From: Oscillibacter valericigenes
Lineage (GTDB): Bacteria > Bacillota > Clostridia > Oscillospirales > Oscillospiraceae
Assembly: GCF_021531915.1 (NCBI RefSeq)
Contig: NZ_JAFBIV010000002.1
Location: forward strand, 186,001-250,000
DNA length: 64,000 nucleotides
Reading direction: 5' to 3'
A model generated the notes under the pieces. That model searched no databases. It saw nothing but the letters and a program-made list of their open reading frames with translations, and was not told the DNA's origin. Each line of letters begins with the position of its first letter. Positions within the stretch are counted from its first letter, which is position 1. Position numbers and translations under genes: made by a program. Shown here piece by piece: positions 24,887 to 40,150 of the stretch.

Positions 24887-25579
24887 TTACTGCACCGCAG
24901 TGGGCAGGCCGGCCACCCTCAGCTTGGCGTCAAATCCGCCGCCGCGGTAGACAAACATCAGCGTCCGCACCTGCTCATGGGTCAGGTTGATGACGTCGCC
25001 GTTGCCGGAGGGGTCGCTGCCGTCACCCTGGATGATGCCGGCGGTCATCAGCACCTCAATCATGGGGCGGAACTGCTCCGGAATGTCCTCCAGATACTGA
25101 TAGGTCACGTTCTCTCCCTCCTTCCCTTCCTTCGATATCACCGGAGTATTGAACAGGTCCTGCTCCGCCTTCCTGCGGTGCGTCAGGCCGACGAGGACCT
25201 TGCCGCCCGCCTTGTCGTACAGCGCCATGGCCGTGCAGATCTGGGGCAGGCTGCGACCCTTGCAGAGGGTTTTCAGATTACCAACGCCGCAGTTAAAGGC
25301 AAAAGAGATCAGAGCATCCCGCTGGTTGGCGTTCAGCCAGGCCGTCAGCGGGCAATACGCCGTGTTGTCCACCGCATCCGCGAACCGCTGGCAGTCAGAT
25401 GCCAGCAGGGCATCCGCCTCCGCCTGGGTGATCCGGTCCCCTTCCCGCACGTCCGGGCCGTAGTGGCCCCAGCCGATGGTCCAGTATTTCTCCGTGGGCA
25501 CGGGCTTGTAGGCCATCAGGCGGCAGCCCTCGAACTTCTTGATCAGCGCCAGCCCGGCCGCGCCAATGGGCTTGCTCAT
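24887..25579 (-). CDS. Phage-type lysozyme (GH24) with C-terminal extension
   Basis: A 230-residue endolysin. The GH24 muramidase domain (~1-145) has catalytic Glu in KKFEGC, the GWGHYG segment and FNCGVGNL. It cleaves peptidoglycan glycan strands. The last ~75 residues (after YQYLEDIPEQFRPM) form a small helical domain like those on clostridial phage lysins, possibly wall-binding. No signal peptide or holin is seen. The ATG at 25579 overlaps nothing but lies 11 bases after the upstream gene. Its place beside tRNA-Leu suggests a prophage remnant. Confidence 0.9.
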   Translation of the reverse strand: MSKPIGAAGLALIKKFEGCRLMAYKPVPTEKYWTIGWGHYGPDVREGDRITQAEADALLASDCQRFADAVDNTAYCPLTAWLNANQRDALISFAFNCGVGNLKTLCKGRSLPQICTAMALYDKAGGKVLVGLTHRRKAEQDLFNTPVISKEGKEGENVTYQYLEDIPEQFRPMIEVLMTAGIIQGDGSDPSGNGDVINLTHEQVRTLMFVYRGGGFDAKLRVAGLPTAVQ

Positions 25580-25589
25580 AGTTCCGCCC

Positions 25590-25931
25590 TCAGTCCGCAA
25601 AGGTCACGCGGCGCGCCTTTGCGGCATAGCCGTCTTCATCATAGAATACGGCAAAGTATCCGCTTCTGACCCTCTGAATGACTACCTGTCCGGCCAGGTC
25701 CCTGCGGCGGCACATATCCGGGGTGTTGCGCAAGGGCTTCTCACTGCCGCGGCCGATGTCGATGAGGCCCTCCCGGTCCTCCCGCTCTCCTTTGGCTCTG
25801 GCCTCCTCTTCTGTCATGGGCTCCAGGTGATACCCCGCCCCCAGTTCCTTCAGCTTTTCGTTGATCTCCTCCATCGTGAGCTCACCGGCAGCATACTTCT
25901 CCATGATCTCGCTGATTACTTTCTTCTCCAT
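25590..25931 (-). CDS. Uncharacterised 113-residue protein
   Basis: I do not recognise this protein. An N-terminal acidic helical part (MEKKVISEIMEKYAAGE, EEINEKLKELG) precedes a shorter basic, beta-like C-terminus. AAAGGATGATCCT stands before the ATG. It is coupled to the lysozyme gene, with the same orientation and an 11-base gap, so it may be part of the same phage remnant. Confidence 0.6.
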   Translation of the reverse strand: MEKKVISEIMEKYAAGELTMEEINEKLKELGAGYHLEPMTEEEARAKGEREDREGLIDIGRGSEKPLRNTPDMCRRRDLAGQVVIQRVRSGYFAVFYDEDGYAAKARRVTFAD

Positions 25932-26110: not shown

Positions 26111-26995
26111 TTATCCCTGATAGAATTCCCGGATGTAAGCCTGAACATCTTCCCGGGTCCCGGTGAAGGGGCCGGGGGTCTCCATTTTCAGAGAGACGCA
26201 GGCAGTGGCATACAGCAGGGCCTCCTCCATATCCGCGCCCAGCATCCGCATGGCCAGGTAGGAGCCGAAGGTGGTGTCGCCCCGGCCGGTGCGGCCAGAC
26301 AGGTTCCGGGCCTTGATGGGGCAGGTGCAGTACCGCTCTCCGTCATAGGCCAGGATCTCGCTGTTGTGAGAGATGACGACCTCCTTGGCGCCCCACTCAT
26401 GGAGCTGCCGGGCAGCAGCTGCCCGGTCTGTCAGACCCGTCAGGATCTCCGCCTCGGCGGCGTCCGTCTTGAGGAAATCCATGTAGGGCAGGTACTTCAG
26501 CTTCTTCTCCCAGTCGTGGAAGCACAGGGTTCCGTTCTCATTGTGCCGCAGGAAGCCCTGAGCATCGGCGGACACCAGGCCCATCTGGTGCAGCTTCTCG
26601 ATCAGTGCGTCGGGGAAGTCGCCGTACAGCAGGCCTGCCAAGTGGTACAGGCGGCAGGGCACATCGGGGATCTCCTCCGGCAGCACAGGGTCGGACTGCG
26701 CCGGGCAGGAGGAATTGCGCCGCTCCCGGTCGGCGGTGAAATACTCATTGCGCATCAGAGTGGTCTTTTCGGAAGGCAGCAGCGCCGCATCAGCGGGATC
26801 GCCGCCCAGGGGCTCCAGCACATCCCGGTCTGCCGGGTTGGCCTTTACGGCGGCAAAAACCTTGGCGCCCGTGGCTCTGGCGGCAGGGGTGCAGAAGGTG
26901 ACAGCGCCGCCCACGCAGCGGTCCTCCGCGCCGGTGTAGTCGATGTTCACATCTCGGGTAGCGGGGCCAATGATCATCAGATCGTAGGAATTCAT
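26111..26995 (-). CDS. PfkB-family carbohydrate kinase
   Basis: A 294-residue ribokinase-fold enzyme. The N-terminal gate segment GGAVTF is at 29-34. The C-terminal anion hole and catalytic base stand in GRTGRGDT at 234-241 (Asp240), where most members have GAGD. It phosphorylates a sugar or sugar-like alcohol; the substrate is not identifiable. GGGAGGATATTTCC stands before the ATG. It is the last gene after the permuted mutase and four HAD proteins, which suggests handling of sugar-phosphate products. Confidence 0.9.
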   Translation of the reverse strand: MNSYDLMIIGPATRDVNIDYTGAEDRCVGGAVTFCTPAARATGAKVFAAVKANPADRDVLEPLGGDPADAALLPSEKTTLMRNEYFTADRERRNSSCPAQSDPVLPEEIPDVPCRLYHLAGLLYGDFPDALIEKLHQMGLVSADAQGFLRHNENGTLCFHDWEKKLKYLPYMDFLKTDAAEAEILTGLTDRAAAARQLHEWGAKEVVISHNSEILAYDGERYCTCPIKARNLSGRTGRGDTTFGSYLAMRMLGADMEEALLYATACVSLKMETPGPFTGTREDVQAYIREFYQG

Positions 26996-27024
26996 GGAAA
27001 TATCCTCCCTTTTTCATAACGCTC

Positions 27025-27059
27025 AAATTTCCCGCACCCTTTCCGGGTGCGGGAAATTT
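27025..27059 (-). other. Hairpin between the permuted mutase and PfkB kinase
   Basis: A perfect 15-bp stem AAATTTCCCGCACCC / GGGTGCGGGAAATTT with a 5-base loop but only AAATTT after it. It may be a partial terminator or an mRNA-stabilising element. Confidence 0.7.
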
Positions 27060-27067
27060 GCGGTTTT

Positions 27068-28636
27068 TCAGCAATACTGGGTGCCTACGCCGTCCACCAT
27101 GGCATCATAGGCCCGCTTGACCTTGTCATAGTTCTTGTCACGGTCCAGGACCACACCGCGGCCCACGCCGTCCACGATACGGCCCAGACCGATCTGATCC
27201 AGTCTGGCGTCCAGCTCAGCCAGCAGAGTGGGAGCGGAGCCCGGCTCGGTGGAGCGGCCGTCGAAGATGATGTGGAAGTAGACCTGCTCCAGTCCGGCCT
27301 CCTTGGCCATCTCGCAGACGGAGATGGGATAGTCGATGCAGCCGTGAGAGGACTTGTAGGTCAGGTAGGCCAGCAGGTGCAGGGCGGTGCCGTTCTTCTT
27401 GGCGTGCTCAATGGCCTGCAGGAAGATGGGATTCTTCTTGAAGCTGCCGTCCTTCACAGCAGCGTCCAGGCGGACGTCATCCTGCATGACGCAGCGGCCC
27501 GCGCCCAGGTTGGAGTGGCCGGCCTCGGAGTTGCCGGCCTTGCCGGCGCCCAGGCCCACGAACTCGCCGGAGGCGTGGAGCTTGCTCCAGGACTGTTCAG
27601 CCAGCAGGGAATCCCAGTAGGGGGTGTCTGCCACATGGATGGCGTCGTTCTCGTCGCCGGAGCCCAGGCCCCAGCCGTCGCAGATGATGAGCAGCATTTT
27701 GCGGTCCTTGCCCCAGTCCTTGCCAACAGCCAGGGACTTGCCGTCCATCTCGGCGGGCTGCGGAATGCCCATGACCTCCAGAACCGTGGGGGCAACATCG
27801 CCCAGGGAGCCGTCCCGCAGGGTGATGGGAGCCTTGTCGGCGGGATCGATCATGATGAAGGGCACCAGGTTGGTGGTATGGGCGCCGTCGGGTTTGCCGG
27901 CAGCGGTGTACAGCTTCTCAATGTTGCCGTGGTCGGCGGTGATGGCCACCACGTAGCCCTTTGCCAGAGCGTCGTTGACGACCTTGTCCAGGTAGCGGCT
28001 GACATGGCCGCAGGCCTCGATCTTGGCAGCGGTGTTCTGGGTGTGGCCGATGACGTCGCCGTTGGCGAAGTTGGTGACCACGAAGTCGTACTTGCCCAGA
28101 GCATCCATCACCGTATCCGCCACCTTGGGCAGAGACAGCTCAGGCTGCTGGTCAAAATCGATCCCCTTGGGAGAGGGGATGCAGACATCGTCCTCACCGG
28201 GGAAGGGGTTGTTTTCACCGCCGTTGAAGAAGAAGGTCACATGGGCGAACTTCTCGCTCTCGGCGCAGTGGAACTGACTCTTGCCGGCCTCGCTGAGGAT
28301 CTGGGCCAGGGGCTTCACCACCTTGGCGGGAGCGAAGGCGATGGGCAGGTCCTTGAATTTATCATGATACATGGTCATGATGACAAAGTCAAGGTCGTTC
28401 AGCTTCCGGCGCTCCACCTTGTCGAAGGGATCGTCGGTGAACATCTCGGTCAGCTCGATCTCACGCTCGCCGCGGCGGCAGCAGAACACCACGGAATCGC
28501 CGTCGCTGATCTTGCCCACGGGCTTTCCGTCCTCCACCAGGAGCATAGGTTCCAGATGGTAGTCGTCCTGACCCAGTTCGTATGCTTTCTTGACGGCTTC
28601 CGCCAGCTGGGCGCCGCCGCGTTTACTATCAGACAT
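27068..28636 (-). CDS. gpmI: Circularly permuted iPGM-family phosphoglycerate mutase
   Basis: A 522-residue alkaline-phosphatase-superfamily mutase with its halves in reversed order. Residues 1-312 match the second half of cofactor-independent phosphoglycerate mutase: RRGER (Arg54, Arg57), ESEKFAHVTFF (Lys129), NFANGDVIGHT (Asp194, His198), TADHGN (Asp235, His236), AHTTN (His253). Residues 314-522 match the normal N-terminal half: IICDGWG (Asp320), GNSEAGH (nucleophile Ser370), SSHG (His431), DGRST, VGRGVVLDRD (Arg493, Arg499). All metal ligands and the serine are kept; the Asp of the usual DGRDT is Ser462. AGGAGG precedes the ATG. An internal AAGGA seven bases before ATG 27697 marks the old start. 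It lies in the HAD operon, so the substrate may differ from phosphoglycerate. Confidence 0.93.
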   Translation of the reverse strand: MSDSKRGGAQLAEAVKKAYELGQDDYHLEPMLLVEDGKPVGKISDGDSVVFCCRRGEREIELTEMFTDDPFDKVERRKLNDLDFVIMTMYHDKFKDLPIAFAPAKVVKPLAQILSEAGKSQFHCAESEKFAHVTFFFNGGENNPFPGEDDVCIPSPKGIDFDQQPELSLPKVADTVMDALGKYDFVVTNFANGDVIGHTQNTAAKIEACGHVSRYLDKVVNDALAKGYVVAITADHGNIEKLYTAAGKPDGAHTTNLVPFIMIDPADKAPITLRDGSLGDVAPTVLEVMGIPQPAEMDGKSLAVGKDWGKDRKMLLIICDGWGLGSGDENDAIHVADTPYWDSLLAEQSWSKLHASGEFVGLGAGKAGNSEAGHSNLGAGRCVMQDDVRLDAAVKDGSFKKNPIFLQAIEHAKKNGTALHLLAYLTYKSSHGCIDYPISVCEMAKEAGLEQVYFHIIFDGRSTEPGSAPTLLAELDARLDQIGLGRIVDGVGRGVVLDRDKNYDKVKRAYDAMVDGVGTQYC

Positions 28637-28658: not shown

Positions 28659-29435
28659 TTACTGCCCGTCATCGGGGGCAATCAGCTTATCGACAGCCAC
28701 CTGACCGCAGGCGGGGAAGATGTCCAGCAGCTGGGGGAAGGTGTAGATCTTGCCGCTGGGCATATTCTCCTCGGTAAGCTTCAGGGGCTTGTTTTTGTTG
28801 TACTGGACAGCCACGGTCATGCCGAAGTCCACGGCCTTGGCGCCGACGATGTCGCGGTTGAGGTTGTCGCCGACGTAGCAGCAGTTCTCCGGCTGGGCAC
28901 CGACTTCCTCCATGGCATAGTAGTAAATGGCAGGACCCGGCTTGCGAACATAGGTGATGGAGGACTGCTGCACGGTCTTGAAGTAGGGCCGCAGGCCGTC
29001 GGCATCCAGCCACTCGTCCACCTCGCGCTTGCCCACCAGGTCGCTGATGATGCCCAAGGTGTAGCCACGCTTGCACAGCTCCTTGACGGTCTCGGCGCCA
29101 CCTTCCACCACGGTACGGCGGCCCTTGGTCTGGCGATACTGGTAGGTCAGCTCGGCGGCGTTCTTCAGGATGCGCTCCCGGTCCATGTCGTAGGCCAGCC
29201 AGCGGGTCCAAAGGACCTCCTCGGGAGCCTCGCACATATACTTCAGCGCCCACTCACGGTACTTGTCGTACCGCTTGTCGATCACGTCGTCAAACCACTT
29301 GTTGGGATCATCGGTCTCCACACCGCACAGCTCGGCGATCTTGGCCCGGGCTGCGGAAAGATAGGCGGGGTCCTCGTCGATGACGCGGAAGGTACCGCCC
29401 AGGTCGATGAAGATGTAACGGATATCAGTATTCAT
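28659..29435 (-). CDS. HAD-fold hydrolase, DxGxT variant (HAD-1)
   Basis: A 258-residue HAD protein with a helical cap. Motif I is FIDLGGTF: nucleophile Asp11, but Gly13 where phosphatases have the acid/base Asp. Motif II is IISD, motif III Lys in RKPGPAIY, motif IV YVGDNLNRD. Closest in the window is HAD-2 (shared YQYRQTKGRR and GYxLGIIS). GGAGGTCATTACT fixes the ATG at 29435. It is fourth of four tandem HAD genes before the permuted mutase. E. coli YihX (glucose-1-phosphatase) also has Gly at this place, so activity is possible. Confidence 0.9.
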   Translation of the reverse strand: MNTDIRYIFIDLGGTFRVIDEDPAYLSAARAKIAELCGVETDDPNKWFDDVIDKRYDKYREWALKYMCEAPEEVLWTRWLAYDMDRERILKNAAELTYQYRQTKGRRTVVEGGAETVKELCKRGYTLGIISDLVGKREVDEWLDADGLRPYFKTVQQSSITYVRKPGPAIYYYAMEEVGAQPENCCYVGDNLNRDIVGAKAVDFGMTVAVQYNKNKPLKLTEENMPSGKIYTFPQLLDIFPACGQVAVDKLIAPDDGQ

Positions 29436-29454
29436 AGTAATGACCTCCATAACG

Positions 29455-29493: not shown

Positions 29494-30231
29494 TCAGTTC
29501 AGGGGCGGCAGCAGGTCCAGGATCTCCCGGAAATCCTTGATGATGGCATCAGGGCGGTTCTCCTCGGTGAACTCCACGGCGTGCTTCTTCTCGGGAGACT
29601 CGAAGATGATGTTGCAGCCCACGCCGGCTTTCTTGGCACCGGGAATATCCCGCTTGATGTTGTCAGCCACGGACACGCAGTCCGCCAGGTCCACGCCCAT
29701 TTCCTTGGCGCAGAGCTGATAGATCTCAAAACCGGGCTTGCGCAGATGGCACACAGAGGAGAGAATGACGGAATCGAAGTACTTGTCCAGACCGTCCTCC
29801 TCCAGCCAGTCGGGCACCTCGTTCTCACCGATGAGGTTGGAGATGATGCCCAGCTTGTAGCCGCGCTCATGGAGACCCTTGATGACCTCCACACCGCCGT
29901 CCACGACGACGCGGCGGCCCTTGGTCTGGCGGTACTGGAAGCTCAGCTCGTGGCAGACCTGCTTGATGCGCTCCTGGTCATAGTCAGGCAGCAGCCACTT
30001 GCACCACAGCTCCTCGTCACCGGATTCCTTGTATTCGCCCAGAGCCCACACACGATAGGGCTCATAGCGTTCCTCGATCACCTGGTAGAATTCCTCGTAG
30101 GGCATCTCCGTGCCGGCCAGCTCCGCCATTTTCCGGCGGGCGTGCTTCATATAGGGTTCATCCTTCAGCGCGATACGCAGCGTACCGCCCAGATCAAAAA
30201 AGACTGCCTTATAACGTTTATTCAGTTCCAT
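29494..30231 (-). CDS. HAD-fold hydrolase, DxGxT variant (HAD-2)
   Basis: A 245-residue HAD protein. Motif I is FFDLGGTL with Asp13 and Gly15 at the acid/base position, motif II IISN, motif III RKPGFEIY. Motif IV reads SVADNIKRD, with Ala replacing the usual Gly before Asp. It pairs with HAD-1 as a recent duplicate. AGGAGG stands nine bases before the ATG. It is probably cytoplasmic and acts in the same pathway as its paralogues. Confidence 0.9.
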   Translation of the reverse strand: MELNKRYKAVFFDLGGTLRIALKDEPYMKHARRKMAELAGTEMPYEEFYQVIEERYEPYRVWALGEYKESGDEELWCKWLLPDYDQERIKQVCHELSFQYRQTKGRRVVVDGGVEVIKGLHERGYKLGIISNLIGENEVPDWLEEDGLDKYFDSVILSSVCHLRKPGFEIYQLCAKEMGVDLADCVSVADNIKRDIPGAKKAGVGCNIIFESPEKKHAVEFTEENRPDAIIKDFREILDLLPPLN

Positions 30232-30251: not shown

Positions 30252-30983
30252 TTAAGTGCGGGCGGGAAAAATATCCAACAATTCGCCCAGATTTTCAATC
30301 AGATAGTCACAGGCCTCCCGCTTCTCCTCCACACGGCCCTTCTTGGGATCGTGGATCAGGATCATGCAGCCGAAGCCGGCGGCCCGGGTCCCCTCTACAT
30401 CCCGGTCGATGTTGTCGCCCACATAGGCGCAGCCGGCCTCGGGGGTGCCGCAGCAGCGGCAGGCCAGATGGTAGATGGCCGGGTCCGGTTTCCGCAGACG
30501 CACCTTGGCGGAGAGGATCGTGGTGGTGAAGCAGTGGGAGATGCCCTCCTCGATCATCCAGTTGGTGATCTCCGTCTCGGTGATAGTATTTGCGATGACG
30601 CCCAGCTTGTAGCCGCGGCGGTAGAGCTCCCTGACCGTCTCCACTGTGTCGAACCGGGTCAGGCGCTTGCCGTTGGTACCATCCCGCCAAAGGGTGGTCA
30701 GTTCCTGGGCATGAGCCGCCACATACTCGGGCTCCACATCCGGCAGCATGATCTGCTGCCAGAACTCGATCTCAGGATAGTCCAGCAAATCGATCTTGGA
30801 TCTCTCCCGGTACACATCATAGCGGGCCTTCAGCTTGTCGTAAAAGGCCTGGGGATCTTCCTTGCTCCCGGCCAGCTCCGCCAGCTTCCGGCGGCCTTCC
30901 GCGATAAACGCGGGGTCCTTGTCAGTCACCCGCAGGGTGCTGCCAATGTCAAAGAAAATGGTTTGAATATTGGAAGCACTCAT
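30252..30983 (-). CDS. HAD-fold hydrolase, DxGxT variant (HAD-3)
   Basis: A 243-residue HAD protein. Motif I is FFDIGSTL (Asp12, Gly14), motif II VIANT, motif III LRKPDPAIY, motif IV YVGDNIDRD. It shares long identical stretches with HAD-4 (IANTITETEI, RLRKPDPAIY). Its ATG lies two bases after the HAD-4 stop without a clear ribosome-binding site, so the two are translationally coupled and may form a complex. Confidence 0.9.
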   Translation of the reverse strand: MSASNIQTIFFDIGSTLRVTDKDPAFIAEGRRKLAELAGSKEDPQAFYDKLKARYDVYRERSKIDLLDYPEIEFWQQIMLPDVEPEYVAAHAQELTTLWRDGTNGKRLTRFDTVETVRELYRRGYKLGVIANTITETEITNWMIEEGISHCFTTTILSAKVRLRKPDPAIYHLACRCCGTPEAGCAYVGDNIDRDVEGTRAAGFGCMILIHDPKKGRVEEKREACDYLIENLGELLDIFPART

Positions 30984-30985
30984 AA

Positions 30986-31723
30986 TTACATGCTTGCCCG
31001 GTCGGGGAACAGATCCAGCAGTTCCCGGATGGCCTTGATGCGGTAATCAGGCTTCACCGTGGGGGCCTTGCCCTCCCGGTCTGCCGTTCCGGCATCCTCA
31101 TACAGGATCATGCTGCCGTAACCGGCGTCCACGGCACCTTCCACGTCGCGGACCGGGTTGTCGCCCACGTAAGCGCAGTTCTCAGGGACAGAGCCGATGC
31201 AGCGGGAGGCCAGCAGATAGATGGCGGGATCGGGCTTCCGCAGGCGTACCTTGGAGGAGAGGATCACGGTCTGGAAGCAGTCGGCCACCTGGTCGTGGCA
31301 CATCCAGTCGGGGATCTCCGTCTCGGTAATGGTGTTGGCAATGATGCCCAGCTTGTAGCCGCGGCGCTTCAGCTCCAGCAGCGTGTCCTTCACGTCATCG
31401 TGAGGCACCCGGCGGCCATCGTGGTCACGCCACAGGCGGGTCAGACGGGCGGCATTGGGTGCGATGACCTCCGCGGGATAATCCGGCAGCAGGTACTGGA
31501 GCCACAGCTCCATTTCAGACACATCCAGCAGGACCGTCTTGGCCAGCTTGCGGTAGGCCTTCCAATTCTTGTTCAGCTTCTCAAAAAACACTTCGTGGGA
31601 CTCGGTGGCACCGACGATCTTCATCAGTTCCCGGTCTGCGGCGGCGGAGAATTCGGCGTCCTCCACCACATAGCGCAGCGTAGCTCCCACATCAAAGAAA
31701 ATAGTATCGATATTCCGGTTCAT
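30986..31723 (-). CDS. HAD-fold hydrolase, DxGxT variant (HAD-4)
   Basis: A 245-residue HAD protein, first gene of the operon HAD-4/3/2/1, permuted mutase, PfkB kinase. Motif I is FFDVGATL (Asp11, Gly13), motif II IIANT, motif III LRKPDPAIY, motif IV YVGDNPVRD. AGGAGGTATCCCC stands before the ATG. The operon promoter, a LacI-type operator and a ~260-base structured leader lie upstream. The acid/base Asp is missing as in all five paralogues. Confidence 0.9.
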   Translation of the reverse strand: MNRNIDTIFFDVGATLRYVVEDAEFSAAADRELMKIVGATESHEVFFEKLNKNWKAYRKLAKTVLLDVSEMELWLQYLLPDYPAEVIAPNAARLTRLWRDHDGRRVPHDDVKDTLLELKRRGYKLGIIANTITETEIPDWMCHDQVADCFQTVILSSKVRLRKPDPAIYLLASRCIGSVPENCAYVGDNPVRDVEGAVDAGYGSMILYEDAGTADREGKAPTVKPDYRIKAIRELLDLFPDRASM

Positions 31724-32323: not shown

Positions 32324-33337
32324 ATGAAAAACGTCACGATCAAAGATGTAGCGAAAGCCGCCGGTGTCTCCTACTCTACCGTTTCCCGTGCTCTCTCCGG
32401 CAGTCCGGAGATCAGTGCAGACACCCGGGAACGTATTCTCCAAGTCTGCAAGGATATGAACTACACCGCCAACACCGTGGCACGGGCCATGGTCATGAAG
32501 AGCACCAAACTGCTGGGCCTGATTCTAACCGGGGTCAACAACCCATTCATGTCAGAGCTGGCATACCATATCGACCGTCAGGCCAGAGCCCGTGGCTACA
32601 ACATCATTCTGTGCAATTCTTCCCGGGATGCCGAGCAGGAGCGGGAGCAGTTCGAGCTGATGATCGGCCGTCAGGTGGACGGCATCATCCTGTGTCCCTC
32701 CGGCCCCGAGAGCTACGAGTCCCTGCGTCCTTACCTGTCCCGCCTGCCCACCGTATTCGTGGGTGAAAACCTGCGGGAAGTCCCTGAGAGCTATGTCTCC
32801 GTGGACAATGCCCGGGGCGCCTACATCGGCGTGGAATACCTCTATAACCTGGGCCATCGGGATATTCTCTATTTCGGCCGCCGCCGGGGCAGTACCACCC
32901 ACCAGCTCCGGGCCGACGGCTACGCCGCCGCCTGCCGGGATCTGGGCCTCACGCCCCAATACTGCAACAATACCTTCTCTTTCACGTCCATCAAATACGG
33001 CTACCAGTTGGCCAAGCAGCTTTTCGCCCAAGAGCGGCACTACTCCGCCATCTTCGCCGCTACCGACACCAATGCCCTGGGTATCATGCAGGCCGCCGAA
33101 GAGAACGGCATTCGCATCCCGGAGGATATCTCCCTGCTGGGCTTCGATAATATCCGGGACAGCGGCCTGCCCCGCATCAACCTGACCACCATCGAACAGC
33201 AGAAGAAAATGCTGGCCTCTGTGGCGGTGGACAGCCTGCTGGACAAGATCCAGAACGAGCTGGCCGGCTACACCCACCGTATCCTGACCCCCACCTTGAT
33301 CGAGCGTGACTCTTGTGCCCCCTATTCTGGGAAATAA
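32324..33337 (+). CDS. LacI-family transcriptional regulator
   Basis: A 337-residue regulator. The helix-turn-helix and hinge stand at residues 5-27 (IKDVAKAAGVSYSTVSRALS), followed by a periplasmic-binding-protein-like effector domain (GLILTGVNNPF, SLLGFDNIRDS). It would bind a sugar or sugar-phosphate and control the flanking operons. GCGGAGGCATACTT stands before the ATG. The gene separates the two minus-strand operons of the locus. Four palindromes centred on AAACGTTT-like cores at those operons and at the PHP gene are the likely targets; the link is inference. Confidence 0.95.
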   Translation: MKNVTIKDVAKAAGVSYSTVSRALSGSPEISADTRERILQVCKDMNYTANTVARAMVMKSTKLLGLILTGVNNPFMSELAYHIDRQARARGYNIILCNSSRDAEQEREQFELMIGRQVDGIILCPSGPESYESLRPYLSRLPTVFVGENLREVPESYVSVDNARGAYIGVEYLYNLGHRDILYFGRRRGSTTHQLRADGYAAACRDLGLTPQYCNNTFSFTSIKYGYQLAKQLFAQERHYSAIFAATDTNALGIMQAAEENGIRIPEDISLLGFDNIRDSGLPRINLTTIEQQKKMLASVAVDSLLDKIQNELAGYTHRILTPTLIERDSCAPYSGK

Positions 33338-33410: not shown

Positions 33411-34172
33411 TCAGGCGGTCTCTGCTTCCCGCAGCTGCTGCACGATGGGATAGACCTCATAGATATCCTCCACCATGTAGTCCGGCTCAAACTCCCGCCG
33501 GATACCGCTGTCCTTTTCGCCCGTCAGCTTGGAGCAGATCTGGATGGCCTTGGCAAAACCGGCCCGCTTGGAACCGATCACGTCCCGGGAAACCGTGTCT
33601 CCCACATAAACGCACTCCTCCGGCTCGGACTGCACCTGCCGCAGGGCCACCGTGAAGATGTCGGTGCAGGGCTTCCGGAAGCCGGTGACAGAGGAGAGTG
33701 TCACGTCCTGGAAGTAGTCCCGGATGCCGTATTCCTTCAGAATGTCAAACACCTGATAGAGCGCTGCCGTGTTGCTGATGATACCCAGCTTGATGCCCAT
33801 CTCCTTCAGGCCTTCCAGCATGGGCACCACCCGGGGACGGAGGCGGCGGTGATAGTGGGTCACTTCCCACATGTGGGCGATCTCCTCACAGTGGGGTGCC
33901 AGCGTCTCTCTGGGGAAGCCGAAATCCGTCAGCACATAGTCGCACCAAATCTCCACAGGCTTCAGCTCCACATCACAGGAGTCCCGATAGGCCCCGTAGC
34001 GCTTCCAGCCTGCATCCACCCGGCGCTTCAACTCCTCCAGATCCACCTGGGGGTCCAGACCGCAGCTCTTCAGGATCTCCGCCAGCTTTTCAACAGCCTC
34101 CCGCTCGGAGGCCTCATCCACGAAGATATCCTCCAGAGTGCCTCCCATGTCAAATAAAACAGTCGTAATCAT
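33411..34172 (-). CDS. HAD-fold hydrolase, DxGxT variant (HAD-5)
   Basis: A 253-residue HAD protein, more divergent than HAD-1 to HAD-4. Motif I is LFDMGGTL (Asp8, Gly10), motif II IISNT, motif III Lys in FRKPCTDIF, motif IV YVGDTVSRD. AGGAGG stands six bases before the ATG, which lies two bases from the upstream metallo-beta-lactamase-fold gene. It ends the importer operon, tying the importer to this HAD family. Confidence 0.9.
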   Translation of the reverse strand: MITTVLFDMGGTLEDIFVDEASEREAVEKLAEILKSCGLDPQVDLEELKRRVDAGWKRYGAYRDSCDVELKPVEIWCDYVLTDFGFPRETLAPHCEEIAHMWEVTHYHRRLRPRVVPMLEGLKEMGIKLGIISNTAALYQVFDILKEYGIRDYFQDVTLSSVTGFRKPCTDIFTVALRQVQSEPEECVYVGDTVSRDVIGSKRAGFAKAIQICSKLTGEKDSGIRREFEPDYMVEDIYEVYPIVQQLREAETA

Positions 34173-34174
34173 TG

Positions 34175-35146
34175 TTACCTCCTATCGCCGTCACAGCTTT
34201 CCGGAGCTATGACGGTCCCATCCTCATGGATCGTAAAATCCACAGAATTCCAATAATCCGCCTGGTGCCACGGGGCGGAAAACGAATCGGTGAACAGCAC
34301 ACAGGCGCCGGTCCGGCGCAGCAGTTCCACAGCCCCCTGAGAAGGGCGGTCCTTGTGGGGGATGTACTCCGATTTGCAGGAGATCACCGCCCATGTAGGA
34401 CGGAGCTTCTCCGCCAGTTTTTCCGTCATAGACTTTGCATCTCCGTGATGCGGCACCTTGAAAATATCACAGGGCGTAAGCGCCTCGTTCTCCCACACGC
34501 AGCCATAGCAGTCCCCTGCCAGCTCCATGACACGCCCCGCGTAAGTCAGGCGTACCCGCAGAGAGCCGGGGTTTCTGGATTTGGCAGCCCAGTACTTCAG
34601 GTCCTCCGGCACGGGAAGGCCCCGGAGCATGTCCCCCCATACCAGCCGCTGGGCAGCGTTTTCCGTCCGGTTGGGACAGATGATATCCACGGACAGCCGG
34701 GGTGTCAGAGGAAGCGCCCGAAGGGTTTCGGATACCGTATGCAGCCTGCATCCCATCTCCCGCAGCCGGTCCGCATTCTCAGCCCATTCGTTGAGACATT
34801 CAATCAATCCGCGAACGGTCTTTTGCCCGTCAGGCTCCAGGGGAGCACGCTCTCCCGGACCGCCGGGGAAAAAACCGGAATATACGTTGTCAATCATGAT
34901 CTCCGGCAACAGGTTTCCAAGACCGCCGGAGTGGTCTGTATGCAGGTGGGTGACCACCAGCACGTCCAGATGCGTGATCTTCTTCTCACGCAGATAGTCG
35001 ATGGTCCGGCATCGCAGGGAATCGGGCACATCTCCCAGTTCCTGCCGTCCGGTGTCCACCATCATGCGGAACACCCGATCTCCCTCCCAATCCTCGATCA
35101 GAATGGAGTCGCCGTCCGCCACATTGATAAAATGGATGTTCAGCAT
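34175..35146 (-). CDS. Metallo-beta-lactamase-fold hydrolase (ComEC/Rec2 C-terminal type)
   Basis: A 323-residue soluble hydrolase with the metal motif THLHTDH (His67, His69, Asp71, His72), a later GDCYG segment and VPHHGD, the arrangement of the ComEC-like MBL group. Such proteins cleave phosphodiester or phosphate esters, but substrates are largely unknown. No signal peptide. The ATG lies six bases after the membrane protein stop with a weak ribosome-binding site, so translation is coupled. It stands between a membrane protein and a HAD protein in the importer operon. Confidence 0.88.
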   Translation of the reverse strand: MLNIHFINVADGDSILIEDWEGDRVFRMMVDTGRQELGDVPDSLRCRTIDYLREKKITHLDVLVVTHLHTDHSGGLGNLLPEIMIDNVYSGFFPGGPGERAPLEPDGQKTVRGLIECLNEWAENADRLREMGCRLHTVSETLRALPLTPRLSVDIICPNRTENAAQRLVWGDMLRGLPVPEDLKYWAAKSRNPGSLRVRLTYAGRVMELAGDCYGCVWENEALTPCDIFKVPHHGDAKSMTEKLAEKLRPTWAVISCKSEYIPHKDRPSQGAVELLRRTGACVLFTDSFSAPWHQADYWNSVDFTIHEDGTVIAPESCDGDRR

Positions 35147-35152
35147 CCGTTA

Positions 35153-35707
35153 TCACCGCCGCTGAAGAGATTTTTTCCAGTCCGGCTCATCATCCGGCTT
35201 GGGAGGTACATAGTCCCGCCGGAAAAGGTAGTATGTCACCGCCAGTCCCAGGGCCAACGGGATCACGACGAACCAACCGTAAAAGGTCAGCAGAGCCCCG
35301 ACAGCGCCGGTCCCCCGCAGGTAAATCAGCAGCGTGATCAGACAGGCAGCGGCATACAGTGCCAGCCACAGATAGGTGCCGAACATCAGCCGCTTGTCCG
35401 TCAGGACAAAATGCAGCAGTATACTCACCAGCAGTCCTACGATAGCAGCCGCCAGGGATTGGATCAGGTTGCCCCAGAAGACCGGAAGCCCCGCCGTCAG
35501 ATTATGGAGTCCTTCGATCACAACAAAGAAGGCGGCTCCGTATACCGCCAGCATCACAAAGCTGAGGCAGAAGGTGTATACCAACAATCCGCTTTTGGGC
35601 TTTCCGTTCTCCGTCATCCGGAAGGCAGACCAGAAACTGTCCGCCGCCTTGGTGACTTTTTCGTTCCACTCCTTGTCCTGAATGGGGTTGGTGCCTTTGC
35701 TCAGCAT
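35153..35707 (-). CDS. Small integral membrane protein, four helices
   Basis: A 184-residue protein I cannot assign to a named family. A soluble N-terminus of ~38 residues is followed by four hydrophobic helices (about 40-65, 79-102, 109-131, 135-160) and a basic tail YVPPKPDDEPDWKK. AAGGAGGAACTCC stands before the ATG. It lies between the binding protein and the MBL-fold gene, so it may anchor or regulate the system in the membrane. Confidence 0.75.
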   Translation of the reverse strand: MLSKGTNPIQDKEWNEKVTKAADSFWSAFRMTENGKPKSGLLVYTFCLSFVMLAVYGAAFFVVIEGLHNLTAGLPVFWGNLIQSLAAAIVGLLVSILLHFVLTDKRLMFGTYLWLALYAAACLITLLIYLRGTGAVGALLTFYGWFVVIPLALGLAVTYYLFRRDYVPPKPDDEPDWKKSLQRR

Positions 35708-35790: not shown

Positions 35791-37095
35791 TCACTTCTTC
35801 TGGTTCAGCCAGTAAGTCCACATATCCTGAACGTCGGGATAGATTGCATAGATGGCGTCGATGTCATTGGGACGGGCGCCCAGCTCAGACAGCTTGGCGG
35901 GGTTCTTCTTGTCCTCAACGTCGTCACGCAGGGGCCAGTTGCCGACCTTGGTGAAGGGCTTCAGACCACCGCTCTGGCCATCAGCGCCGCCGGTGATGTA
36001 GCGGATGAACAGACGGGCACCAGCAGGGCTGTCGGTACCGGCAGCAACGAACAGGGACTCGGTGTTCAGCAGAGCGTTGTAGGGCTTCAGGTCGATGCAC
36101 CAATCAATGTTGTAACCGGACTCCTCCTGGTTCTCGATCTTGCCGGCAGAAGCCAGGCACAGAGCGGGTTCGTCCTTGGTGGAGTTGTGAACGGCCAGCA
36201 CCAGCTCGTCGCCGTCGCCGATGAAGGTCATCTCAGCCTGAGTGAAGCGCCACAGGTACTCTACGCCGGCGTTGTTCTCGGGCACCTCGAAGTTGAACTT
36301 GGAAGCGTCATAGGTGTACTCCAGATCCTTGCCGTAGACGCGCTTGTAATCGGCCTCCATCTCGTCAGCATGGTTGATGAAGCTGGCGAACAGGGACAGG
36401 TAAGCGGACTCCTGACCGATCTCCTTGGTGTACAGGTGGAAACGCTGATTGCCATTCTCGTCCTTCTCAATGATCTGCCACCAGCTGTCGATAGGCTGAC
36501 CATCGGGGAACGCCTCGGTGTTGTAATACCAGAAAGCCTGAGAAGCGTACAGAGGATAGCTGTACTTCAGGTTGCCCTCTTCGATGTGGGAGCAGATGTC
36601 ACGGGGATAGAAGGGCTCCAGGATGCCCTGGTTGTACCACTCGTAGAACACGCTGCCGTTGACGTCCTTGGTCTGCAGCACGTCGGCGGTGACGTTGCCG
36701 GTCTCATGCTCGATCTGAGCCTTGCTCAGGACCTCGTCGGAGTCCAGGTCGGAAACAACCAGATCCAGGCCGGGATACATCTCTTCGAAGGGCTCCTCGG
36801 CCTTCAGCATCTTGGAAGAGGTGGCGTAGATGTTCAGGACCGTGTCCTCCTTCAGCGCCATCTCATACAGCTCGTCGTCGGTCATGTCGCTCCAGTCATC
36901 ATAATAGGGACCATAGGCCTCAGCGCCGGTCTCAGGGTCATAGCCCAGAGGCAGGTCGGTGGTGGGCTCTGCCGCAGGTTCCTCAGTGGCAGGAGCATCG
37001 GGGGTGGTGCTGGGGGTCTCGGCCTTCTTGCCGCAGGACGCAAGGCTGAGAACCATGACAGCAGCCAGCAACAGTGCAAACAGCTTCTTTTTCAT
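35791..37095 (-). CDS. ABC importer substrate-binding lipoprotein (Fbp/Afu class)
   Basis: A 434-residue lipoprotein with a signal peptide ending in lipobox LASC (Cys about 21), a Pro/Thr/Glu-rich linker and a family-1 extracellular solute-binding domain. The ATG at 37095 has AAAGGAGAAG upstream; a longer frame would start inside the leader. It belongs with the ATPase and fused permease encoded before it. In this class ligands include ferric iron, 2-aminoethylphosphonate and hexose phosphates. Which one applies cannot be read from sequence, but the HAD/PHP/PfkB context favours an organophosphate. Confidence 0.9.
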   Translation of the reverse strand: MKKKLFALLLAAVMVLSLASCGKKAETPSTTPDAPATEEPAAEPTTDLPLGYDPETGAEAYGPYYDDWSDMTDDELYEMALKEDTVLNIYATSSKMLKAEEPFEEMYPGLDLVVSDLDSDEVLSKAQIEHETGNVTADVLQTKDVNGSVFYEWYNQGILEPFYPRDICSHIEEGNLKYSYPLYASQAFWYYNTEAFPDGQPIDSWWQIIEKDENGNQRFHLYTKEIGQESAYLSLFASFINHADEMEADYKRVYGKDLEYTYDASKFNFEVPENNAGVEYLWRFTQAEMTFIGDGDELVLAVHNSTKDEPALCLASAGKIENQEESGYNIDWCIDLKPYNALLNTESLFVAAGTDSPAGARLFIRYITGGADGQSGGLKPFTKVGNWPLRDDVEDKKNPAKLSELGARPNDIDAIYAIYPDVQDMWTYWLNQKK

Positions 37096-37160
37096 CGGGT
37101 CTTCTCCTTTCGTTTTGAAAACATTTAGGGAATTCCGCTGGGACATTTATAAACTCGCGA

Positions 37161-38282
<1,122 letters not shown>

Positions 38283-38323: not shown

Positions 38324-40150
38324 TTACCAGCTCTTGCTGATGTCTGCGCCGCCGATCTTGTTGGCCGCGATGTAGCAGAGCAGGATGTAGAACAGCACGA
38401 CCACGGAGATCGCGTCGGACATCTGGTTGTAGCCCTCCTGAGAGTAGGTGAAGGCCAGATAGGACAGGGTCCGGGTGGTGGGGGTCATCATGATGATGAT
38501 CAGGTCCAGCTCCTTGGCGATGGAGATGAACACCAGCATGAAGCCGGAGATAAAGCCGTTCTTTGCCAGGGGGATGATAATGGAGGTCATGCGCTTCCAG
38601 AAGCTGGCGCCGGCAATGTCGGCGGCCTCTTCCAGTTCCACGCTGATGGACAGCATGTTGGCGGTACCGGAACGGCTGGCGAAGGGGAAGTGCTTGACCA
38701 CGGAGGTCAGAATGATGAGGGTGAAGGTGCCGTACAGGGAGGGGATCAGGCCGCCCAGGTGAGGACGGGAGAACATGGAGAAGTACATGGTGGAGAACGC
38801 CACACCGCTCATCAGGTAGGGCACGAACACCAGCTGCTCGGTGAGATTGCCGTACCACTTGCCGCGGCCGCGGGAGCTGATGTAGCCCAGGAACTGGCCG
38901 CAGAAGGCGGTGATGATGGAGGCGATCAGGGACAGGCGGACGGTGTTCCACAGGGACTGCCAGAACTCGTCATGGCGGAAGATGCCGGGATAGTTGGTGT
39001 ACTTCACGGCGGCGTCCGTCGTGCCGATCCAGTTATACAGGGTCAGGTTCTCGGGACCGTAGCCGGCGCCGGTGGTGATCTGGAAGGTCTCCATGATCAG
39101 CACGAAGAAAGGCATCACCATGGCCAGGAACAGGAACACGAACAGGAAGGCCATCATGGGCTTCTTGGCAGCGCCCAGAGGCATCAGGGTGCTGCGGCCG
39201 CCCTTGCCGCCCACGGTGGCATAGGACTTGCGGACGCCGATGATGCGCTGGTTGCTCATCAGGATCAGAGCCGCCAGGCCAACCAGAACGATACTCATGG
39301 CGTAGCCGACGCCGCGGGGACCCTGGTCGATGAACACGCGCATCTTGGTGGCCAGAGTGTAGTAGCCGATGCGGTTGCCCAGGTTGGCGGCAACGCCGTA
39401 TGTACCGATGGACTTGGAAACGGTCATGACCAGTGCGGACAGCACGGAGGGCATGATCAGGGGCAGGGTGATATGGCGCAGGATCTGGGCCTTGTTGGCG
39501 CCCTGGATCTCACCCATCTCCTCCAGCTCGGAGTTGATGGAGCGGAGCGCGCCGGACACCTGGATATAGGAGAACGCGTAGTAGTGCATGGACATGCACA
39601 GGATGATGGCGATGGGCCCGTAGGCCAGCCAGTCGGGGATCGGGATGCCCATGCCGGCCAGGAAGCCGTTGGCGCCGCTGGTGGAGTTGCGGAACACCGC
39701 CAGCCAGGCCAGCGCCTTGGTCCAGGAGGGGATCATATAAGGAATGGTGATCAGCAGGCCCAGCACCTTCTTGCCGGGGATGTCGGTACGGATCATCAGC
39801 CAGGCCAGCAGGGAACCCAGAGGCACGGAGATCAGGGTGGTCATGGCGCCGCAGAACAGGGAGTGCAGCAGGGGCTCCCACAGCACGGCCTTGCTCATGT
39901 TGCTGGCGATCATGTATTTCCAATAGTAAAGGGTAAAGTCACCCACATGTGCGCCGGGGTTGCGCCGAAGCTCGGACTGAGCCAGTGTAAAGGTGGACTT
40001 CACCATGGTCAGCAGAGGGATCACGATCAGGCAAAACAGCACGACCAGGCTGACCAGTACGATCATGTTGAACGGGTTCTTGACCACGTTCAGAATTTGG
40101 TTTTTGAGCCGCGTCTTACTAAATGGACGGCGTTCTTTCTTCCTTTTCAA
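38324..40150 (-). CDS. ABC importer permease, two fused permease domains
   Basis: A 608-residue protein with two BPD_transp_1 halves of about six helices each. The EAA-loop segments are EEMGEIQGANKAQIL with HITLPLIMPSV in the first half and EEAADIAGASFWKRM with IIIPLAKNG in the second. Fused permeases of this type occur in FbpB (iron) and AfuB (hexose phosphate). The start is a TTG with AAAGGAG seven bases upstream. It is the first gene of the operon permease-ATPase-binding protein-membrane protein-MBL-HAD-5. Confidence 0.94.
   Translation of the reverse strand: MKRKKERRPFSKTRLKNQILNVVKNPFNMIVLVSLVVLFCLIVIPLLTMVKSTFTLAQSELRRNPGAHVGDFTLYYWKYMIASNMSKAVLWEPLLHSLFCGAMTTLISVPLGSLLAWLMIRTDIPGKKVLGLLITIPYMIPSWTKALAWLAVFRNSTSGANGFLAGMGIPIPDWLAYGPIAIILCMSMHYYAFSYIQVSGALRSINSELEEMGEIQGANKAQILRHITLPLIMPSVLSALVMTVSKSIGTYGVAANLGNRIGYYTLATKMRVFIDQGPRGVGYAMSIVLVGLAALILMSNQRIIGVRKSYATVGGKGGRSTLMPLGAAKKPMMAFLFVFLFLAMVMPFFVLIMETFQITTGAGYGPENLTLYNWIGTTDAAVKYTNYPGIFRHDEFWQSLWNTVRLSLIASIITAFCGQFLGYISSRGRGKWYGNLTEQLVFVPYLMSGVAFSTMYFSMFSRPHLGGLIPSLYGTFTLIILTSVVKHFPFASRSGTANMLSISVELEEAADIAGASFWKRMTSIIIPLAKNGFISGFMLVFISIAKELDLIIIMMTPTTRTLSYLAFTYSQEGYNQMSDAISVVVLFYILLCYIAANKIGGADISKSW

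Follow-up and report, generated by a model that had tools for sequence, protein, structure and literature searches.

The question raised by this locus is what kind of enzyme results when the second half of a cofactor-independent phosphoglycerate mutase (iPGM) is read before the first, and whether such an enzyme still serves as an ordinary mutase. The window analysed here, a stretch of 64,000 nucleotides from Oscillibacter valericigenes, carries on its minus strand one uninterrupted frame for a protein of 522 aa (27068..28636), which profile and structure-chain matches identify as a circularly permuted member of the iPGM family. The frame opens with an ATG at 28636, preceded by AGGAGG, and its stop codon ends at 27068.

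The initial annotation had claimed, from the letters alone, that the second half of an iPGM precedes the first, and this swap is seen with three references. A phmmer comparison with the chain of PDB 1ejj aligns residues 13-304 of the window protein with chain residues 218-510 (i-Evalue 8.8e-63) and residues 313-521 with chain residues 5-213 (i-Evalue 7.5e-42). NCBIfam TIGR01307 gives the same half swap, and Pfam places Metalloenzyme first and iPGM_N second. Homology to iPGM therefore runs across both domains of the protein, in violation of the canonical linear order. As the sum of two stretches the protein scores 467.1 against TIGR01307, whose equivalog cut-off is 330.65, and it reaches 386.9 against NF003897, below the cut-off of 862 of that model. 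The C-terminal half of the canonical enzyme is encoded at 27725..28600 and holds R55, R58, K129, D194, H198, D235, H236 and H253; the N-terminal half is encoded at 27074..27700 and holds D320, S370, H431, R461, S462, R493 and R499. Between them, the alignment leaves a linker from the old C-terminus to the old N-terminus (GKDWGKDR, about residues 305-312; 27701..27724), all three segments lying on the minus strand. The breakpoints and the short linker near residues 300-313 that had been proposed are thus borne out by the 1ejj alignment, with the new chain start at about canonical position 214-217 and the old termini bridged by about 8 residues. If phosphatase domain A is taken to comprise residues 1-76 and 311-510 of the canonical enzyme and transferase domain B residues 77-310, the cut falls inside the transferase domain; by these borders the phosphatase domain, which is split in normal iPGM, becomes continuous and the transferase domain is split instead. 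An AlphaFold2 model of the window protein, built on a 21-row alignment (pLDDT 87.3, pTM 0.85), has iPGMs as its closest solved matches, superposed over one half because aligners retain the sequence order. That this gene encodes a circular permutation of an iPGM-family enzyme is near certain.

How the fusion came about is less clear-cut. The old start codon survives as M314 at 27697 and AAGGA does stand seven bases before it, as the initial annotation noted, but the further proposal that AAGGA is a surviving ribosome-binding site is not supported. The string codes for the Gly-Lys-Asp-Arg part of the linker. When the 51 nt spanning the old start were compared, a Shine-Dalgarno-like string (any of three) turned up in only 24 of 55 relatives. 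An in-frame ATG is found at the old start position in 44 of the 55. Moreover, the permutation is common to two branches that are only about 40% identical, so the fusion must be old and a silent relic would be unlikely to persist. No residual duplicated segment was seen at the gene, where a HAD gene ends 22 bp upstream and a hairpin follows downstream; duplication, fusion and trimming is a possible origin.

The active site was compared in a joint alignment of 56 permuted and 34 canonical rows (one canonical gene appearing twice), with the canonical order restored. The equivalents of D12, S62, H123, R153, R185, R191, R261, R264, K336, D403, H407, D444, H445 and H462 are kept in 56/56 permuted sequences. 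The set includes the Ser nucleophile and the ligands of both metals (D12, S62, D403, H407, D444, H445, H462), so Ser370 should still be able to accept and pass on the phosphoryl group. The residue assignments made at the outset (K129, D194, H198, D235, H236, H253, D320, S370, H431, R493, R499) are correct and invariant in the 21-row alignment, and the claim that all metal ligands are retained extends to every one of the 56 sequences. On the other hand, position 154 is Asp in all 34 canonical rows and Ser in all 56 permuted ones, where it corresponds to S462 of the window protein. The loop around His123 has also been rewritten, mostly from GVHS to SSHG, with Ser, Ser and Gly at positions 121, 122 and 124 in the whole permuted set, and position 120, which is Gly in 31/34 canonical rows, is Lys or Arg in 53/56 permuted sequences. 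Asp154 of iPGM presumably contacts and activates the glycerate hydroxyl. The removal of this acid together with the gain of a base at position 120 would favour either a substrate that carries one more phosphate there or an outcome as a phosphatase, and suggests that the substrate pocket was made less acidic to accept a more highly phosphorylated acid.

The distribution of the gene was followed at several depths. A genome scan with six exact peptide patterns, which recovers close relatives only, returned 47 loci. The domain order of the window protein recurs in 41 of them, each with the full protein in one open frame of 520-567 aa and 63-95% identity to the window protein; the remainder comprise five incomplete matches truncated at the ends of contigs and a single weak match, L047, that was excluded. 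The excluded locus has a 436-aa frame with an iPGM match over only 101 residues at 43% identity. Among the carriers are the isolates Oscillibacter valericigenes An890 (L022) and Oscillibacter sp. 1-3 (L035). Whole-genome searches with a profile made from 21 permuted sequences (E <= 1e-110, the window's own genome counted every time) detected the gene in 32/86 genomes of the genus (two of these with a partial match) and in 2/245, 2/391 and 12/398 genomes drawn from the order, the class and the phylum; in these larger draws just a few candidates per genome were scored, so that the three counts are lower bounds. The split TIGR01307 signature is present in 3/61 genomes of the window's own family. 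The phylum draw brought in a second branch with the same breakpoints, about 40% identical to the window branch and spread over four other families, so that the gene is found in seven families of one phylum (tool labels f1, f13, f105, f142, f155, f161, f167). Within the order holding two of the second-branch families, 5/12 genomes have it (one only in part), a patchy distribution.

In a FastTree phylogeny of 91 sequences, the 56 distinct permuted sequences are monophyletic (support 1.0), and within their clade the support is 0.913 for the window branch and 0.999 for the second. On the evidence of this tree the permutation arose once, and it is kept by selection. The dN/dS ratio of the window gene is 0.03-0.17 against five of six relatives chosen from the 41 and 0.27-0.35 against the sixth, which indicates that both halves of the enzyme are constrained.

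Does the permuted enzyme replace the housekeeping mutase? The gene was found in 48 genomes, and 18 of these were checked for another phosphoglycerate mutase (3 from the 32 within the genus, 15 from the 16 outside it). All 18 have one. It is a canonical-order protein above the TIGR01307 cut-off in 15 and an archaeal-type mutase above its own cut-off in the remaining three; the window's own genome has its canonical iPGM on contig C11. Histidine-phosphatase proteins, mutases and others taken together, occur in 17/17 genomes. The permuted enzyme is thus not the sole housekeeping phosphoglycerate mutase in the 18 genomes checked. In one of the 15, the single-contig genome G382, the canonical and the permuted gene (L119, L088) are both split across frames, perhaps through sequencing errors.

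The genomic surroundings of the window gene offer further indications. Upstream, on the same strand, profile searches recognise four HAD-type hydrolases, the first directly adjoining (28659..29450, 29494..30231, 30252..30983 and 30986..31723). Beyond them lies a divergent regulator on the plus strand (32324..33337), which we take from its sequence to be LacI-type and a relative of which stands beside the permuted gene in 33/41 loci (L001-L041). The minus strand continues with a fifth HAD-type hydrolase (33411..34172), a metallo-beta-lactamase-fold protein with weak likeness to ComEC (34175..35146) and a 184-aa protein with no Pfam match that looks membrane-like by eye (35153..35707). The genes of an ABC transporter follow: a solute-binding protein (SBP_bac_1; 35791..37146), an ATPase (37161..38282; best models UgpC and PotA, below their cut-offs) and a permease with two transmembrane modules in a single chain (38324..40150). 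Among solved structures this binding protein has just two relatives, both of them weak matches (E 0.009 and 0.01) that are named as components of Fe3+ transport. When only relatives of genes from the window or from locus L108 of the second branch are counted, the first recognised gene upstream on the same strand, up to 400 bp away, encodes a HAD protein in 34 of the 41 loci and an ABC ATPase in 3, while 4 loci have none.

All five HAD proteins read D-x-G in motif I (DLGGT, DLGGT, DIGST, DVGAT, DMGGT) and not D-x-D. The second Asp of D-x-D is the usual general acid/base of HAD phosphatases; it is accordingly absent from all five, and the chemistry of the set may be other than the hydrolysis of phosphate esters. 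Downstream, a perfect 16-bp hairpin (27024-27060, minus strand) begins about 8 nt past the stop codon of the permuted gene; the 86-nt stretch around it has a folding energy of -35.9 kcal/mol (z -5.9), and the hairpin lacks an obvious T run. Past this hairpin lies a gene for a PfkB-type sugar kinase (26111..26995, minus strand, by profile search), and a phage-type lysozyme-like frame with a C-terminal extension was noted by eye at 24887-25600 on the same strand.

The second branch has a different setting. In families f142, f155 and f167 the gene order is GntR regulator, 446-aa protein, binding protein, permease, ATPase and permuted enzyme. The 446-aa protein is a homologue of cyclic 2,3-diphosphoglycerate (cDPG) synthetase (9sxb, 8ork, 8oru; E about 1e-127), so that at six second-branch loci the permuted enzyme ends an operon with this synthetase and an ABC importer. 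According to PMC10690619, the Methanothermus synthetase binds 2,3-DPG, nucleotide and Mg through E45/K46, K145/R146, K149/T150, D208 and K406. The motifs holding these residues (GGTEK, GTGKRIGKT, SDHxED, ELKAAAVDV) are present in 8/8 synthetases, all of the second branch. Within the phylum draw, the synthetase was found in 8/398 genomes, and 6 of these 8 also count among the 12 carriers of the permuted gene (P = 4.7e-9 if kinship is ignored). The eight synthetase loci share one gene order as far as their contigs extend, and the permuted gene is present at all six that reach its place, the other two ending earlier at contig ends. One of these genes, in genome G831 (L130), encodes a protein of 622 aa that scored below the cut-off used in the phylum draw and was recognised only through its adjoining synthetase; its phosphatase domain contains an insertion of 66 residues near query position 265. 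No synthetase was matched at E <= 1e-30 in the window's own genome, and the same search gave no match in six of the 12 genomes with the permuted gene (the window's own, four of f161, and G974); the G974 contig begins within the ATPase gene. The context in f161 differs: in L110 the permuted gene is preceded by RapZ, an FAD protein and an MFS transporter, and in L112 it is followed by a phosphohexomutase-like gene, L113 being similar by gene sizes only.

As for what the importer carries, the top models for the L108 importer proteins are those for 2-aminoethylphosphonate, yet below cut-offs. The best solved match of the L108 binding protein is the iron(III)-compound binder 8x1a (E 7.8e-18), by a small margin over 4r72 (E 4.5e-17), which we take to be AfuA, and over the pyridoxal-phosphate binder P5PA (E 1.4e-16). 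AfuABC was itself once predicted to be an iron carrier (PMC4546632), and P5PA (PMC8427247) is a binder of a phosphorylated small molecule.

Taken together, these neighbours (HAD genes and an importer in one branch, synthetase and importer in part of the other) make a catabolic role most likely, and the permuted enzyme probably processes a phosphorylated molecule from outside the cell. The reading that we favour, with moderate confidence, is that of an ancient, neofunctionalised permuted iPGM whose substrate is a phosphorylated acid taken up by the cell; sequence and gene context suggest 2,3-bisphosphoglycerate as a possible candidate. The ABC importer would bring a phosphorylated C3 acid into the cell, the assumed direction of transport, and the permuted enzyme would convert 2,3-bisphosphoglycerate or a close analogue into phosphoglycerate, either as a phosphatase or as a mutase. 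The phosphate would move onto Ser370 with the help of two metals, as in iPGM; without Asp154, the back-transfer to the glycerate hydroxyl should be impaired, or else a different acceptor or a second phosphate would be accommodated. Against this stand the window genome, which has no synthetase match at E <= 1e-30, the RapZ context in f161 and the iron binders among the relatives of the importers' binding proteins. A bolder, testable extension, which we consider rather unlikely, is that Bacillota anaerobes scavenge cDPG, a solute accumulated by methanogens: after import, the synthetase working in reverse would open the ring, possibly yielding ATP, and the permuted iPGM, deprived of Asp154, would dephosphorylate the resulting 2,3-bisphosphoglycerate to phosphoglycerate. 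Methanobrevibacter smithii is a gut methanogen. According to a review (PMC1224877), cDPG also accumulates in Methanobrevibacter smithii, and the Methanothermus synthetase is reversible, though it prefers synthesis; the same review has the Methanothermobacter enzyme as apparently irreversible. The abstract of a 2023 paper places the product of cDPG synthetase exclusively in hyperthermophilic methanogens. Since the window genome has no synthetase at the threshold used, its branch would have to open the ring with a different enzyme or use a different substrate; under the scavenging reading, the HAD set of the gut branch would take the place of the synthetase.

Several alternatives to our favoured reading have to be weighed. 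The enzyme might act, as mutase or phosphatase, on another phosphorylated sugar acid or on a phosphonate-like compound, with the neighbouring synthetase acting on something related; the HAD- and PfkB-rich operon of the window, its genome without a cDPG synthetase (E <= 1e-30), the aminoethylphosphonate models and the kinship of the binding protein with binders of other phosphorylated molecules point this way, and we grant it a real if lesser likelihood, as every 2,3-DPG-binding motif checked is present in the synthetases of six uncut and two cut loci. It is unlikely, in our judgement, that the protein is a second and still ordinary phosphoglycerate mutase, neutrally permuted, which feeds imported 2- or 3-phosphoglycerate to glycolysis. 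The summed TIGR01307 score passes the cut-off, the residues for phosphate, carboxylate and metals are retained and importer genes lie close by; nevertheless, Asp154 is replaced and the H123 loop rewritten in 56/56, and another mutase is already there in 18/18 checked genomes. The loss of Asp154, the canonical paralog and the operon context all argue against a simply rearranged glycolytic mutase. A decaying or regulatory pseudo-enzyme, which the loss of one active-site residue might suggest, is very improbable given the nucleophile and all metal ligands in 56/56, dN/dS values as low as 0.03-0.17 for five of the six chosen relatives and open frames in 41/41 full-length loci. Finally, an assembly or binning artefact might be suspected because the window assembly consists of 63 contigs, and an assembly rearrangement had been named beforehand as a finding that would overturn the permutation. 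This idea is refuted, and left with practically no likelihood, by the dozens of independent assemblies that show the order seen here, among them those of the isolates L022 and L035, and by its occurrence in other families.

These observations describe a natural circular permutation in a family of central glycolytic enzymes. It was apparently fixed a single time and is retained in many gut and other bacteria. The family offers an evolutionary test of a two-domain hinge enzyme that has been cut inside one domain and had its old ends joined. All three permuted proteins scored against TIGR01307 exceed the cut-off, so automatic annotation would call them ordinary mutases and mask both the permutation and the loss of Asp154. 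The association with cDPG synthetase, in turn, suggests that bacteria use phosphoglycerates in a way not yet described; a literature search covering mostly open-access papers turned up neither a permuted iPGM nor an operon with a bacterial cDPG synthetase.

Among known systems, the closest is GpmI/GpmM (TIGR01307; 1ejj, 1o98), to which both halves are homologous at about 40% identity and with which the permuted enzyme shares the Ser nucleophile, the two-metal ligands and the substrate arginines. It differs in its swapped halves, in the change of Asp154 to Ser, in the S-S-H-G loop around H123 and in Lys or Arg at position 120 (53/56), as well as in coexisting with another phosphoglycerate mutase and in a gene that mostly adjoins HAD or importer genes. 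Phosphopentomutase and other members of the alkaline phosphatase superfamily, such as phosphonoacetate hydrolase, are far more distant and have a different cap domain. The hexose-phosphate importer AfuABC and P5PA are distantly related to the L108 system through its binding protein, whereas the window binding protein bears no recognisably close relation to AfuA or P5PA (best solved match E 0.009). With archaeal cDPG metabolism, in which Methanothermus employs a 2-PG kinase and cDPG synthetase, six second-branch loci share a close homologue of the synthetase, but here the enzyme is bacterial and is encoded beside an ABC importer and a permuted iPGM.
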